Below the pieces are notes generated by a model that was not told the origin of the DNA, searched no databases, and was given only the letters and a program-made list of their open reading frames with translations. The translations under genes were made by a program, and so were the position numbers. From a virus: a DNA stretch of 58,384 nt. The stretch spans positions 1 to 58,384 of IMG/VR virus record IMGVR_UViG_3300046455_000736. The stretch is one strand, 5' to 3'. Below, piece by piece: positions 4,223 through 52,793 of this stretch; the first letter of the stretch is position 1; each line of letters starts with the position of its first letter.

Positions 4223-4554
4223 TCTTGCTCCTCACTATTTGGCTCGACTGATACTTCTGGGAGCGGCTGCGGAAATTGGACTAGACCATTTGGAACATCA
4301 ACCAGGTCGACGGGGTAAGCCTGCTCAGGGCTGTAGTGAGCCGGCAGTGGCAGCATGAGAGTCAATGCAAGCTCTCCTTCCACTTTCGACACGTCGCCTG
4401 CGAACCACTCGGAGGCAATGGCTTCGCGCGGCAAGGTGTCGCCGTTCGACATCAAAGAGAAGTCAAATGCTTCTCCATTAATTGTCAGAACATCCCCGGC
4501 TTTCGTAACGGAAAGCACATTGTCACAACGCACAGGTGAAAGTTTAATAAGCAT
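4219..4554 (-). CDS. Tail fibre accessory protein, unknown
   Basis: A 111-aa protein. The start at 4554 has GGGAGG upstream and overlaps the stop codon of the fibre gene by one base. Residues 1-70 look like a small beta domain (INGEAFDFSLMSNGDTLP); the rest is proline-rich and acidic. Its place between fibre and assembly gene suggests a fibre-associated role. No named family was recognised with certainty. Confidence 0.6.
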   Translation of the reverse strand: MLIKLSPVRCDNVLSVTKAGDVLTINGEAFDFSLMSNGDTLPREAIASEWFAGDVSKVEGELALTLMLPLPAHYSPEQAYPVDLVDVPNGLVQFPQPLPEVSVEPNSEEQE

Positions 4555-38116: not shown

Positions 38117-38851
38117 ATGAAAATTCCTGAAAAAAAGCCAGCCAAAAAACGCCCGCTATCTGAGATAGAGGCGGCTGAGTGCTCCGCGCTGAATGCCATT
38201 TACAAGGCAAAAAAGAAGGCTCTTGGGATCAGCCAAGAGAAGATTGCGATCGAGGGCTTGAAGGCGAACAGCCAGAGCGCTGCAAGCCATTACTTGACCG
38301 GGCGAAACGCCCTAAATATTGAAGCCGCCGCAGTGTTCGCTCGCTACCTCCAAGTACCGGTTTCCGATTTCAGCGAGCGCCTGGCCAAAGAGATCAAAGG
38401 GATTTCTGGCTCTTCAGAATCCAACGTCGGCGAATCTCGCCAGCCTGTTGAGTCCTACCGCTACCCGGTGATCAGTTGGGTAGCTGCCGGCGCATGGGCT
38501 GAGGCAGTGGAGCCCTACCCGGCTGGTTTCTCGGATCGCTATGAGTTTTCCGAGTACGACTCGAAGGGTGCGGCGTTTTGGCTGGAGGTCAAAGGCGACT
38601 CGATGACATCCCCAGCCGGGCAAAGCATCACCGAAGGCACGCTGATCCTGGTGGACACAGAAGCAGAGGCAGCGCCTGGAAAACTTGTGATCGCCAAACT
38701 GCCAGAGAGCAATGAGGCAACGTTCAAGAAGCTCGTCAGCGATGGTGGAAGGCTGTTCTTAAAGCCGCTGAACCCTGGGTACCCGATTGAACCGTTTGAC
38801 GAACGCTGCCGGATCGTGGGCGTCGTCGTGCGGGCGCTGCAGAAGTTCTGA
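38117..38851 (+). CDS. CI-type repressor with S24 peptidase domain
   Basis: A 244-aa protein. The N-terminal helix-turn-helix domain lies at residues about 20-85 (KALGISQEKIAIEGLKANSQ, then SAASHYLTGRNALN). The C-terminal LexA/S24 domain has the cleavage bond Ala124-Gly125 (VAAGAW), the serine in KGDSMTSP (Ser162) and the lysine in ATFKKL (Lys204). RecA-stimulated self-cleavage after DNA damage would release the prophage. There is no ribosome-binding site before ATG 38117, as in lambda cI. Confidence 0.92.
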   Translation: MKIPEKKPAKKRPLSEIEAAECSALNAIYKAKKKALGISQEKIAIEGLKANSQSAASHYLTGRNALNIEAAAVFARYLQVPVSDFSERLAKEIKGISGSSESNVGESRQPVESYRYPVISWVAAGAWAEAVEPYPAGFSDRYEFSEYDSKGAAFWLEVKGDSMTSPAGQSITEGTLILVDTEAEAAPGKLVIAKLPESNEATFKKLVSDGGRLFLKPLNPGYPIEPFDERCRIVGVVVRALQKF

Positions 38852-41724: not shown

Positions 41725-41748
41725 AGCCCGCCCTGAAGCGGGCTTTTT
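41725..41748 (+). terminator. Terminator of the DUF1654 gene
   Basis: AGCCCGC, loop, GCGGGCT, TTTTT. It overlaps the first OL element by one base. Confidence 0.8.
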
Positions 41749-41809
41749 ATTACCTGCGGATATTTTTATTACCTGCGGTCTTGACGAATAATATTATCGC
41801 TAGTAATGT
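41748..41809 (+). promoter_or_regulatory. OL region and PL promoter
   Basis: Two direct copies of TATTACCTGCGG (41748-41759 and 41767-41778), the same element as in OR, and an inverted half (ATTACTAGCG, complement of about 41798-41807). PL: TTGACG (41781-41786) and TAATGT (41804-41809), spacing 17. It should drive the rightward recombination operon under CI control. 41810-42143 holds no gene but has one conserved-loop hairpin. Confidence 0.75.
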
Positions 41810-42047
41810 TTGTTCCAGGCCAACGCAACACCGGCCCAGCAGCGAAAGCCGCGCAGCTCTTTAGCTCCACCGCTTCACCTTGCCGGATCACCACCGGCCC
41901 AGATTCAAAGGCAGCGATGAACCGGCCTCAACGGTTCAGAGGGTTGGCAACTGACCCGGGCGTGCAGCGTAAAACGCCGAAAGCAGTTATCCAGCGGGAG
42001 AACAAGCCGAAAGGCCCGCGGCTGGAAGAACAATTTTGGATAGGCCA

Positions 42048-42072
42048 GTGACCGACGCCAGTAGCGGGTCAC
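42048..42072 (+). ncRNA. Conserved-loop hairpin, copy 1
   Basis: Stem GTGACC/GGTCAC around the loop GACGCCAGTAGCG, in the leader between PL and the first gene. The same loop is held by a different stem at 43191-43219. Confidence 0.55.
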
Positions 42073-42143
42073 GGCGGAAAGTTTCACTGATGCACCTGGT
42101 GACGGGTGCATTGGGAAAACAACCGACAAGCACGGAGCACCAA

Positions 42144-42899
42144 ATGAGCGAGCAAACACTTCAGCAGCTTCTGGCTGAGCGAGTAACCGCCTTCGCGGAC
42201 AGTGATCAGCCAAAAGAGATCATCGACGAGCATGTGAAGATCATGTTCACCAAGGTGATCGATAACTGCTTTGGTCGTTACGGCGACATGGGTAAACAGG
42301 TTGAGGAGGCGATCAAGGCAGCGTTGCCTGCCAACTTGACCACGGTCTTCGAGCTGACCCGCTACAACGACATGATCGCCAAGGCACTGAAGGAAAAATG
42401 GGAGGCCAGCGGCGTAGAGGCCGACATGGTCCGTCGCGCTCAGGAAGCCATCGACGAAGTTCTCACCAAGGACCAGATGCCCGAAGTGGTCAGCCTGCAA
42501 GACCTTCTCGAAGCCTTCATCGACAACCACAAGGAAAGCGCCGCAGAGGAGCGCTGGGAGCGTCCAGATATTCGCTTTCAAGAGTCCGAATACGGCGGCC
42601 TGCACATCTACTTCGACAAGAAACCAAAAGAAGAATCGACCTATAGCAGCCGCGAACGCAGCGAGTACAACCTGGATAACGCGATCCACATCTCGTTCGA
42701 TAAGCGCGGAAATGACCGGGACGATAAAGGTCGTCAGATCGGCAGCCTCTACGCCGCCCGCATCGACAACGAGAAGATCGGTCAAACCCTGCGCTTCAGA
42801 TCGAAGTTCGAGAAGTTGCTCGCCGCTCTCTACTTCGGTGCCTCCAAGATCTTGGTGGATTGCGAAGAAGACGATTTCAGCTACGGAATTTACGACTGA
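42144..42899 (+). CDS. First gene of the PL operon, unknown (251 aa)
   Basis: Start at 42144 with GGAG seven bases upstream. The N-terminal half is helical (EHVKIMFTKVIDNCFGRYGD...EEAIKAALPANLTTVFELTR), the C-terminal half is an acidic mixed domain (YGGLHIYFDKKPKEESTYSS...). No known domain was recognised. As the first gene of the left operon it could be an early regulator or host-takeover factor. Confidence 0.65.
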   Translation: MSEQTLQQLLAERVTAFADSDQPKEIIDEHVKIMFTKVIDNCFGRYGDMGKQVEEAIKAALPANLTTVFELTRYNDMIAKALKEKWEASGVEADMVRRAQEAIDEVLTKDQMPEVVSLQDLLEAFIDNHKESAAEERWERPDIRFQESEYGGLHIYFDKKPKEESTYSSRERSEYNLDNAIHISFDKRGNDRDDKGRQIGSLYAARIDNEKIGQTLRFRSKFEKLLAALYFGASKILVDCEEDDFSYGIYD

Positions 42900-43032
42900 C
42901 AGCATCACCTCTGTCCATTCGCTGAGTGGGCAGACGGATGCGGACGACACTGCGGCCTATAACCGCCCACCTGCATCGCAACCAACTACCGAGGAATGCT
43001 CGGCAGTTGCCCTTCGTTACGGAGGTTTTGCC

Positions 43033-43041
43033 ATGAAGTAG
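43033..43041 (+). other. Two-codon minigene ATG-AAG-TAG with strong ribosome-binding site
   Basis: GGAGG at 43021-43025, seven bases of spacing, then ATG AAG TAG. It may be the leftover start of a deleted gene, or an active minigene like those of lambda bar. The 430-base stretch 42900-43333 has no longer gene; apart from this it holds a chain of hairpins. Confidence 0.35.
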
Positions 43042-43190
43042 CTGAACGATTCACCCGCGTGGCACAGCAAGCCTGAAGGCTGCGCCCAACACTCATACAG
43101 GCAGCGGACAGTAGGCCGTCGATGCTACCGCGCATCGGCCGGTTTTCCGGTAGGCCACCCCAGCGCACGAAGACAACTTGTTGCTGCAAA

Positions 43191-43219
43191 CCCAGGCCGT
43201 CGCCAGTAGCGGGCCTGGG
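43191..43219 (+). ncRNA. Conserved-loop hairpin, copy 2
   Basis: Perfect 8-bp stem CCCAGGCC/GGCCTGGG around loop GTCGCCAGTAGCG. The loop matches copy 1 at 12 of 13 positions while the stem is different but paired. A third hairpin at 43257-43283 (CACGGC/GCCGTG) has a related loop containing CCGGTAGC. Confidence 0.6.
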
Positions 43220-43333
43220 CACCCTTTCCGCCCGATAAATCCCGCATGCGACTTCCCACGGCGCCCTCCGGTAGCTGGCCGTGCTGCGAGGTCGCAGCCG
43301 AGTTTTGTTGGATCAACCACAGAGGTATTTGCG

Positions 43334-43585
43334 ATGCGCCCAGTTATGACTCGAATCGGCAATTCCCGCTCCGGCTTCAAGAGCGCTGGTAACGCGCTGT
43401 TCCATCACTGGGGTGTAGACACGATTGAAGCTGATACCGGCTTCGGAAACTACACCGTGGCGGTCGTCGAGTACCCAGACGGCCGTGTCGACATTTTTCC
43501 CCCGGCGAACATTTTGTTCCTCGATGTTCAGGACCAGGGTCAGGCGGTAATCGCCACCTTCACCGGCGAAGCGAAAGTCGCATAA
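43334..43585 (+). CDS. Small PL-operon protein (83 aa)
   Basis: AGAGG lies upstream of ATG 43334. A beta-rich small protein: FHHWGVDTIEADTGFGNYTV, VVEYPDGRVDIFPPANILFL. Function unknown; conserved-looking early gene. Confidence 0.6.
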   Translation: MRPVMTRIGNSRSGFKSAGNALFHHWGVDTIEADTGFGNYTVAVVEYPDGRVDIFPPANILFLDVQDQGQAVIATFTGEAKVA

Positions 43586-46596: not shown

Positions 46597-47258
46597 TGAG
46601 AACGGAACTTCAGGGCACTGAAAAGTGGAACGCAGACCGATCTGGCCGAGTGACAGCCAGCCGGTTTAAAGATGTGCTTGCCTGGGGGAAGCCTGACAAA
46701 AATGGGAAGCGCGAGCCTATGGGTGCGCGCACCTCATACATGCGCGAACTGTGCTTCGAGCGACTGGCAAAGAAGTCCAAGCACAACGTCAGCAGTGCTT
46801 CCATGAAGTGGGGCCACACCGAAGAGCAGAAGGCGCAGGACGCCTACGAGATGTTGACCGGCAACATCGTCGTACCGTCCGCGTTCATTGTCCACCCGAA
46901 GTACGACTGGCTCGGCTGCTCTCCAGACGGCCTCATCAACGATGACGGGGGCACCGAGTCGAAGTGTCCCTTCAACGAGGCGATACACGTCAGGACTTGG
47001 CTCGAAGGTATGCCGGAGGAACACATGCCGCAGGTCCAAGGCTGCATGTTCGTTACGGGCCGGAAATGGTGGGACTTTCTGTCGTTCGATTCTCGCCAAG
47101 ATGAAGAGTGCCAGCTCTACATCGAGACGATTCACCGCGACGAAGACTACATCGCCAACCTGCACATAGAGCTGGTCCAGTTCAACCTGGAACTGAATCG
47201 CATGGTTGATGAAGTCGCGGACAAAGCCAGGGCGCAAGCCCATCGTTTAGGAGCGTGA
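46596..47258 (+). CDS. YqaJ/lambda-exonuclease-type nuclease
   Basis: A 220-aa protein with GTG start overlapping the RecT stop. WNADRSGRVTASRFKDVLAW at the N-terminus, LGCSPDGLIND (catalytic Asp) and TESKCP (Glu and Lys) are the motifs of YqaJ nucleases, then MPQVQGCMFVTGRKWWDFLS. It resects DNA ends for RecT. Confidence 0.9.
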   Translation: MRTELQGTEKWNADRSGRVTASRFKDVLAWGKPDKNGKREPMGARTSYMRELCFERLAKKSKHNVSSASMKWGHTEEQKAQDAYEMLTGNIVVPSAFIVHPKYDWLGCSPDGLINDDGGTESKCPFNEAIHVRTWLEGMPEEHMPQVQGCMFVTGRKWWDFLSFDSRQDEECQLYIETIHRDEDYIANLHIELVQFNLELNRMVDEVADKARAQAHRLGA

Positions 47259-47503
47259 TCATGATCAGCAACCACCTCAACCTAGTCGAGCAGCAGCGGC
47301 AAAACGCGGAATCAATTTCCAGTCGGACCGCAGAATTTCTGGCTGCCGGCGGGCAAATCGCCCAACTGAAAAGCCCGCCGCGCAACCCACTGCCGCCTAC
47401 CCGCTCACAGAAAATCGACCCCGGCACGGTCCTCAAGAGAAAGCCCAAGGCGTTGACCCCCGCTGATCGAAAGGCTCTCCGGTTAATGGCGGACTCGCTA
47501 TGA
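47255..47503 (+). CDS. Small PL-operon protein (82 aa)
   Basis: GTG 47255 overlaps the nuclease stop; ATG 47261 is an alternative. SRTAEFLAAGGQIAQLKSPP with a basic Pro-rich middle and an end DRKALRLMADSL. Unknown. Confidence 0.55.
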   Translation: MIMISNHLNLVEQQRQNAESISSRTAEFLAAGGQIAQLKSPPRNPLPPTRSQKIDPGTVLKRKPKALTPADRKALRLMADSL

Positions 47504-52674: not shown

Positions 52675-52706
52675 CAAAACCCCCTCCATTGCTGGAAGGG
52701 GTTTTG
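52675..52706 (+). terminator. Terminator of the C5-methyltransferase gene
   Basis: CAAAACCCC, TCC...GGA inner stem, GGGGTTTTG. It lies 19 bases after the stop and directly touches the 3' end of the tRNA-like gene, for which it may serve in the other direction. Confidence 0.7.
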
Positions 52707-52793
52707 TGGAGAGGACGGGATTCGAACCCGTGGACCGGTTTCCCAGTCGTCGACTTATCAGGTCGGTGCAATCGGCCACTCTGCCACCTCTGG
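52707..52793 (-). tRNA. tRNA-Ser-like gene with anticodon GAT
   Basis: Read on the minus strand, an 87-nt class II tRNA: D arm GCAGAGTGGCCGATTGC, anticodon loop CTGATAA (anticodon GAT at positions 34-36), long variable arm, T arm ACGGG TTCGAAT CCCGT. The body (AGAGGTGGCAGAGTGG..., long variable arm) is serine-like, but GAT reads the isoleucine codon ATC. The first two acceptor pairs are C-C mismatches and CCA is not encoded. It may be degenerate, or altered for a special purpose. Confidence 0.6.

Follow-up and report, generated by a model that had tools for sequence, protein, structure and literature searches.

The window analysed here, which is the whole stretch of 58,384 nucleotides of the IMG/VR virus record IMGVR_UViG_3300046455_000736, has a lambda-like layout. 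Genes for CII-like, Cro and cI repressor proteins are followed by accessory genes, a terminator, a putative early left promoter (PL) and a leader containing the hairpin H1. Downstream are an accessory gene, a further leader that contains the hairpin H2, small genes, recT and the gene of a YqaJ exonuclease. Elsewhere in this phage contig, a tRNA-Ile (gat) gene lies on the - strand (52706-52793). The features discussed below are as follows.

38117-38851, + strand: cI-like repressor gene (Peptidase S24), upstream of PL and on the same strand
41781-41809, + strand: putative PL promoter TTGACG-17-TAATGT (sequence; relatives)
41856-41863, + strand: boxA-like GCTCTTTA in the PL leader (sequence, family comparison)
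41881-42040, + strand: module B, a structured leader (48-leader alignment, consensus fold)
42044-42075, + strand: H1, CAGUA hairpin type 1 (sequence, fold, family model)
42081-42120, + strand: HL, a long hairpin with one bulged A, directly 5' of the ribosome-binding site of the gene at 42144
42144-42899, + strand: accessory gene between H1 and H2 (251 aa, PHROG 2600, function unknown)
43021-43041, + strand: Shine-Dalgarno GGAGG and minigene ATG-AAG-TAG, at the head of module E
43042-43190, + strand: module E, between the minigene and H2
43191-43219, + strand: H2, CAGUA hairpin type 2 (sequence, fold, family model)
43247-43296, + strand: third hairpin (module F), outer stem TGCGAC/GTCGCA (fold, relatives)
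43334-43585, + strand: small gene, the next in the operon (83 aa, PHROG 11000, function unknown)

An intrinsic-terminator-like hairpin (about 41725-41749) stands just before the putative PL. The promoter of the window was not scored by a consensus promoter scan; at the same position, relatives have a good TTGACA..TAAATT-type promoter within operator-like dyads. Assignment of the hairpins to the PL operon, already made in the first-pass annotation, agrees with all 21 lysogeny regions examined, window included: in each of them the hairpin is located 3' of the cI-type repressor gene and on the same strand. Pattern scans and the family model described below found no copy in the PR operon of the window, the only two copies being those of the left operon, on the + strand. 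H1 and H2 are separated by 1145 nt, a distance that includes the accessory gene and further leader sequence. In several relatives having no accessory gene at this place, the two hairpins are 271-323 nt apart.

A hairpin family with an invariant head

RNA folding gives a single fold for each of H1 and H2. It is composed of a lower stem, a 2-nt bulge on the 5' side (GA in H1, GU in H2), an upper stem CGC/GCG and a CAGUA pentaloop, with about 11 base pairs in total. The core of H1 (42048-42072) reads GTGACC-GA-CGC-CAGTA-GCG-GGTCAC, with the bulge at 42054-42055, the upper stem at 42056-42058/42064-42066 and the loop at 42059-42063. Its stem is lengthened by GCC (42044-42046) and GGC (42073-42075) around the bulged A42047. 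H2 reads CCCAGGCC-GT-CGC-CAGTA-GCG-GGCCTGGG. Its lower stem is CCCAGGCC/GGCCTGGG, its bulge is at 43199-43200, its upper stem at 43201-43203/43209-43211 and its loop at 43204-43208. Sequence and fold thus place both hairpins where they had been announced, at 42048 and 43191. The conserved loop G(A/T)CGCCAGTAGCG of the first description is indeed a conserved stretch of 13 nt, but it is not single-stranded: according to folding, it corresponds to the 2-nt bulge, three invariant pairs and the 5-nt loop.

The exact core occurs twice in the window, both times on the + strand, and the core pattern read backwards has no match there; matches to a loosened core pattern arise often by chance. Compared with shuffled sequences, the fold of H1 is clearly better (z = -2.9). 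That of H2 is only modestly better (z = -1.5), so that folding energy alone is no proof of H2. The family model scores the two hairpins at E = 3e-12 and 9e-12, both of them belonging to its training set. No U run follows H1 or H2, and neither therefore has the GC-rich hairpin plus direct U run of an intrinsic terminator.

To find members of the family, viral contigs were scanned with a degenerate 15-mer. A stem check and then a covariance model were added, because the exact 15-mer scan returned many chance matches. After the stem check, about 50 convincing members of two main types were retained. One type has a GA bulge and stems GTGACC, GCGACC or CGCGACC; the other has a GU bulge and stems CCCAGGCC, CCCGGTCC or CCCGGCC. 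The covariance model, built from 43 of these members, matches 86 of 399 Pseudomonas genomes at E <= 0.01. A draw of 294 genomes from the whole order gave three matches, all already found in the search of the genus, and no CAGUA hairpin in other genera. Among the 60 stretches obtained when GTDB contigs were scanned for the exact pattern, 58 are titled Pseudomonas.

Alignment to the model yielded 108 matches, 93 of them distinct. The upper stem CGC/GCG is unchanged in all 93, and in the lower stem six of eight pairs show changes on both sides. The covariance model favours paired stems; pairing was therefore recounted on members picked by their core and flanks, not by their stem. In 81 such distinct members, pairing reaches 87.7% over the first six positions of the stem; when the arms were shuffled 1000 times, it averaged 60.7% and never exceeded 67.1%. 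Related sequences in these family counts are not independent. Covariation of the stem, claimed from just two copies in the window, thus holds across the family. A covariance search had been named as a test able to overturn this claim; it found more than 100 members with compensatory changes. The pentaloop is mostly CAGUA, with CAGCA as chief variant and CAGAA or CAGUU as rare ones. The bulge is a G followed by any base, GA, GU, GC and GG types being counted. An excess of G-U over A-C near-pairs in the stem (28 to 23) was considered as a sign of selection at the RNA level, and it is not decisive between RNA and DNA.

As judged from this comparison, H1 and H2 are selected hairpins of one family, probably of cis-acting RNA, with an invariant head carried by a variable stem. 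At gathering score, Rfam 15 has no match to the hairpins or to their modules in the window, where it detects only the tRNA elsewhere, and none in seven related loci; relaxed limits add only sub-threshold chance matches. No published description of the hairpin was found in the literature searched. The CAGUA hairpin is thus a previously uncatalogued RNA element of phage early leaders, present on the transcribed strand of PL leaders in phages and prophages of Pseudomonas. It is compact, supported by covariation and outside Rfam, and it offers a precise core to mutate.

Leader modules and neighbouring structures

H1 is the 3' hairpin of module B. This module begins with a hairpin GCCGG-N7-CCGGC, followed by stems TGAACC/GGTTCA, GGGT/ACCC, GGCG/CGCC and CCAGC/GCTGG. 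In the consensus fold of 48 leaders, 10 of 35 pairs show changes on both sides. A frame is open from the invariant ATG of module B and is broken in several relatives. A small basic protein was considered and rejected. Because of early stops in relatives (after MNRP, MGRP, MSRP or MNQPE), frame shifts and unconserved ends, module B is read as RNA. In phage PseuP_224 (locus L123, 3010-3135), an overlapping frame that carries the annotation of a hypothetical protein looks non-coding. RNAalifold proposed that the invariant GGCAGCG of module B pairs with the 5' half of the hairpin; this pairing is unsupported, as neither side varies and the bases concerned are already engaged in the local hairpin. 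The hairpin is carried by 66 of 71 module-B leaders, a proportion biased upward since most loci were fetched via the hairpin itself. Module B without the hairpin is present in the P. syringae phages Aurca01, Orimi01 and Medea1, which were identified by similarity of their leaders.

HL is located between the hairpin and the ribosome-binding site of many unrelated genes. Its fold in the window is strong (z = -4.6), and its base and upper stems vary among relatives with pairing kept. In P. aeruginosa phage Flu_PA14_4 (L297, near 4355-4395), HL is found without the CAGUA hairpin. A kissing interaction between the CAGU loop and an ACUG of HL was rejected: CAGUA also stands beside HL of the CACCGA type, and the two do not co-vary. 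In the window, the ribosome-binding site is downstream of H1 and HL and not covered by the hairpin; at the median it lies about 70 nt away in the family. A translational operator placed over the start site was also rejected, the hairpin overlapping neither the ribosome-binding site nor the start codon. In loci L241, L247, L239, L253 (near 1530-1620) and L029, the gene directly 3' of the hairpin and HL encodes a CsrA-like protein, recognised by eye.

H2 closes module E, unlike H1, which closes module B; other copies close still other modules. At the head of module E, the window has the minigene ATG-AAG-TAG (43033-43041). The form ATG-(AAR)-stop is present in 24 of 33 copies of the module; six of the other nine have, at this position, ATG-CAC-CAG-TAA, ATG-CAG-CAT-TAA or ATG-CAC-ATG-TGA. 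The background rate of the shorter minigene form is about 0.005 per 115 nt. A start-stop control of the H2 leader by the minigene is possible.

The third hairpin had been placed at 43257-43283 and given a related loop. The hairpin does fold, over 43247-43296, but the relationship was not borne out, the conserved inner part in relatives being GCGCCCAnCGGCAACCAGC. By this different head, the third hairpin is classed as a separate element, unrelated to the CAGUA hairpin. A further structured module occurs in L069, L121 and L122 (2390-2600), where a long stem comes after CGACAGCCTGTCGTTAACTGCCCGA; this stem varies from phage to phage, being GCATCGGGGTGTGATC/GATCACACCCCGATGC in one case and GCATCGGTCTGCAATCTC/GAGATTGCAGATCGATGC in the other.

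Many of the leaders have a boxA-like sequence close to their start. In the 330 nt located 5' of the hairpins, such sequences number 70 in the sense and 3 in the antisense orientation. They are found upstream of 68 of 171 hairpins within this distance, mostly about 190 nt before the core; they are within 60 nt in three cases, to which L081 is added. In L029, L138, L194 and L081, boxA is tens of nt 5' of the hairpin, a nut-like spacing. A sizeable minority of module-B leaders has no boxA; there, the hairpin is kept and module B begins near the promoter. Conversely, phage Flu_PA14_4 has boxA and HL and no CAGUA hairpin.

Three kinds of sequence come after the hairpin: a start codon preceded by its ribosome-binding site, a further module, and an intrinsic terminator, the last of which is confined to the GU-bulge type. 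Of 65 GU-bulge hairpins, 12 have such a terminator 42-58 nt further on, and in nine of these the distance is exactly 47 nt; among 100 hairpins with a GA, GC or GG bulge there is none. Loci L226, L227, L222, L244, L257, L031, L044, L057, L118 and L152 have a type-2 hairpin and then a terminator 47-52 nt past the core. In the copies read, a hairpin TCACGTAGGGAGGTCTTCGTGA stands between the two, an attenuator-like layout inside the operon.

Possible roles in early gene expression

The CAGUA hairpin probably helps to control early gene expression. We tentatively propose, at somewhat less than even confidence, that it is a factor-binding leader element of early-operon transcription control, nut-like or put-like in role, that would keep RNA polymerase elongating. 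H1 and H2 would form the 3' ends of structured untranslated leader modules in the PL transcript. The invariant bulge, the CGC/GCG stem and the CAGUA loop would make up the contact surface for a factor, which could be a protein or the RNA polymerase; the role of the stem would be merely to present this surface. Binding during transcription would allow the polymerase to elongate through the long, untranslated start of the operon, which carries accessory genes, and would also take it through conditional terminators. Such a role in elongation or antitermination is favoured because of the boxA context and of the fixed-distance terminators. The invariant head with its compensatory stem changes, the constant place downstream of cI on its strand, and the ribosome-binding site left uncovered by the hairpin also speak for this proposal. 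Several observations on the sequences weigh against it. The window has no PR copy, and neither a recognised N-like protein nor a universally shared small protein appears. Some module-B leaders keep the hairpin without boxA, while L297 has boxA and HL without the hairpin. Finally, the hairpin is present in several copies, which often lie at a distance from the promoter.

Concerning a partner, no match to N families was obtained among the window proteins scanned, where a diverged N could escape, and no small protein common to all hairpin-bearing regions was found. A universal partner was therefore not retained among the candidates: just cI-type repressors are shared, and an 82-aa and a 113-aa protein of the left operon are frequent, not universal. 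The 82-aa protein (window 47255-47503) has a weak, below-cutoff match to the SutA RNA-polymerase-binding domain (PF20661, E = 0.002). It is present in 19 of 28 phage regions compared and absent from L297, L298, L299, L122 and L123.

A 5'-UTR role is almost as likely as transcription control. The hairpin, usually with HL, would be the leader of each small gene cassette and would act on translation, on mRNA stability, or as part of a site where the polycistronic PL mRNA is cut, in the manner of the RNase III sites of T7 and of the lambda N leader. This role is favoured because ribosome-binding sites and HL are close by: an ORF of at least 45 aa with a Shine-Dalgarno sequence starts within 150 nt 3' of 116 of 167 hairpins (median 71 nt), compared with 13 in the antisense control, and HL, with its covarying stems and strong fold in the window, precedes the ribosome-binding sites of many unrelated genes. 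Yet after many copies comes a further structured module or a terminator and no gene, the hairpin is short for RNase III, and HL is found without it.

In a broader proposal, which we regard as rather unlikely, interchangeable structured RNA modules that all end in a CAGUA hairpin would make up the PL leaders of Pseudomonas temperate phages. The module before H2 would then be a new kind of attenuator, in which a minigene of one to three codons with a strong ribosome-binding site would set the fold of module E and H2, and so decide operon transcription where a terminator follows at 47 nt. If true, this modular organisation would give a well-sampled phage group a region of RNA-based control of unusual richness.

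The hairpins could also act at the DNA level, as conserved borders for the swapping of accessory cassettes by phage recombination, any RNA effect being secondary. H1 and H2 do flank a variable region, occupied by an inserted gene in the window and reduced to 271-323 nt where no gene is present. The same leader is found ahead of unrelated genes, and recT and a YqaJ exonuclease gene belong to the left operon. Exchange by homology nevertheless needs no stem variation that preserves pairing, the orientation is always that of the operon, and no transposase or integrase is tied to the hairpin. We therefore consider this explanation improbable. Still less probable is that leader modules ending in the hairpin are processed to small RNAs acting in trans on host RNAs or defences. 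The leaders are long, highly conserved, structured and untranslated, and early expression is expected from PL, but no sign of processing, target or host phenotype was found, and a hairpin that closes several unrelated modules better fits a cis element. Chance repeats with ordinary GC-rich folding, an idea that the z score of H2 taken alone and the frequent loose matches could have encouraged, are already refuted by the covariation, the occurrence in 86 of 399 Pseudomonas genomes and the consistent position and strand.

Little is described on early antitermination or leader control in Pseudomonas temperate phages in the literature found. The CAGUA hairpin marks the sites of accessory genes in the left operon and provides a handle for finding an RNA-binding factor, of phage or host.

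Comparison with known systems

A lambda-type nut site is composed of boxA and of a boxB hairpin with a pentaloop, bound by N and Nus factors. The present leaders resemble it by their location in the PL transcript, by the upstream boxA-like sequence and by a small pentaloop hairpin, and a few of them have boxA tens of nt 5' of the hairpin. They differ by the 2-nt bulge, the CAGUA loop, the usually distant boxA and the several copies. Strict membership of the nut class is not supported, as there is no PR copy and no recognisable N gene in the window.

The put RNA of phage HK022 is about 70 nt long, has two stem-loops and binds the zinc-binding domain of the RNA polymerase beta' subunit; it is located downstream of both PL and PR (PMC9378689). 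Here too, the early leader is structured and untranslated, and module B lies near the promoter where boxA is missing. In contrast, the leader is about 200 nt or more with several stems, it belongs to PL only, and the hairpin recurs downstream. Strict membership of the put class is likewise not supported, since size, two-stem-loop form and placement at both PL and PR are not matched.

RNase III sites are cut in T7 early mRNA and in the lambda N leader. The repetition of hairpins ahead of early genes recalls these sites, as does HL, a long bulged hairpin just 5' of a ribosome-binding site. The CAGUA hairpin itself differs from them: it has about 11 pairs, and its head is strictly conserved. DNA hairpins of the REP/RAYT or integron attC kinds were rejected: no transposase or integrase is recurrent nearby, conservation concerns the head and not the base, and the orientation is fixed.

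The bar minigenes of lambda are AUG-AUA-stop. Like them, the minigene of module E has one to three codons and a ribosome-binding site and belongs to a phage early transcript. It differs by its coding content (M, MK, MHQ, MQH or MHM before the stop) and by its constant position at the front of an RNA module.

The coat-protein operators of MS2 and PP7, made of a stem, a bulge, a short upper stem and a conserved loop, are typical protein-binding hairpins. Here, the phages have double-stranded DNA, the ribosome-binding site is outside the hairpin and the partner protein is only putative, but the CAGUA hairpin is built on the same plan of stem, bulge, short stem and conserved loop.
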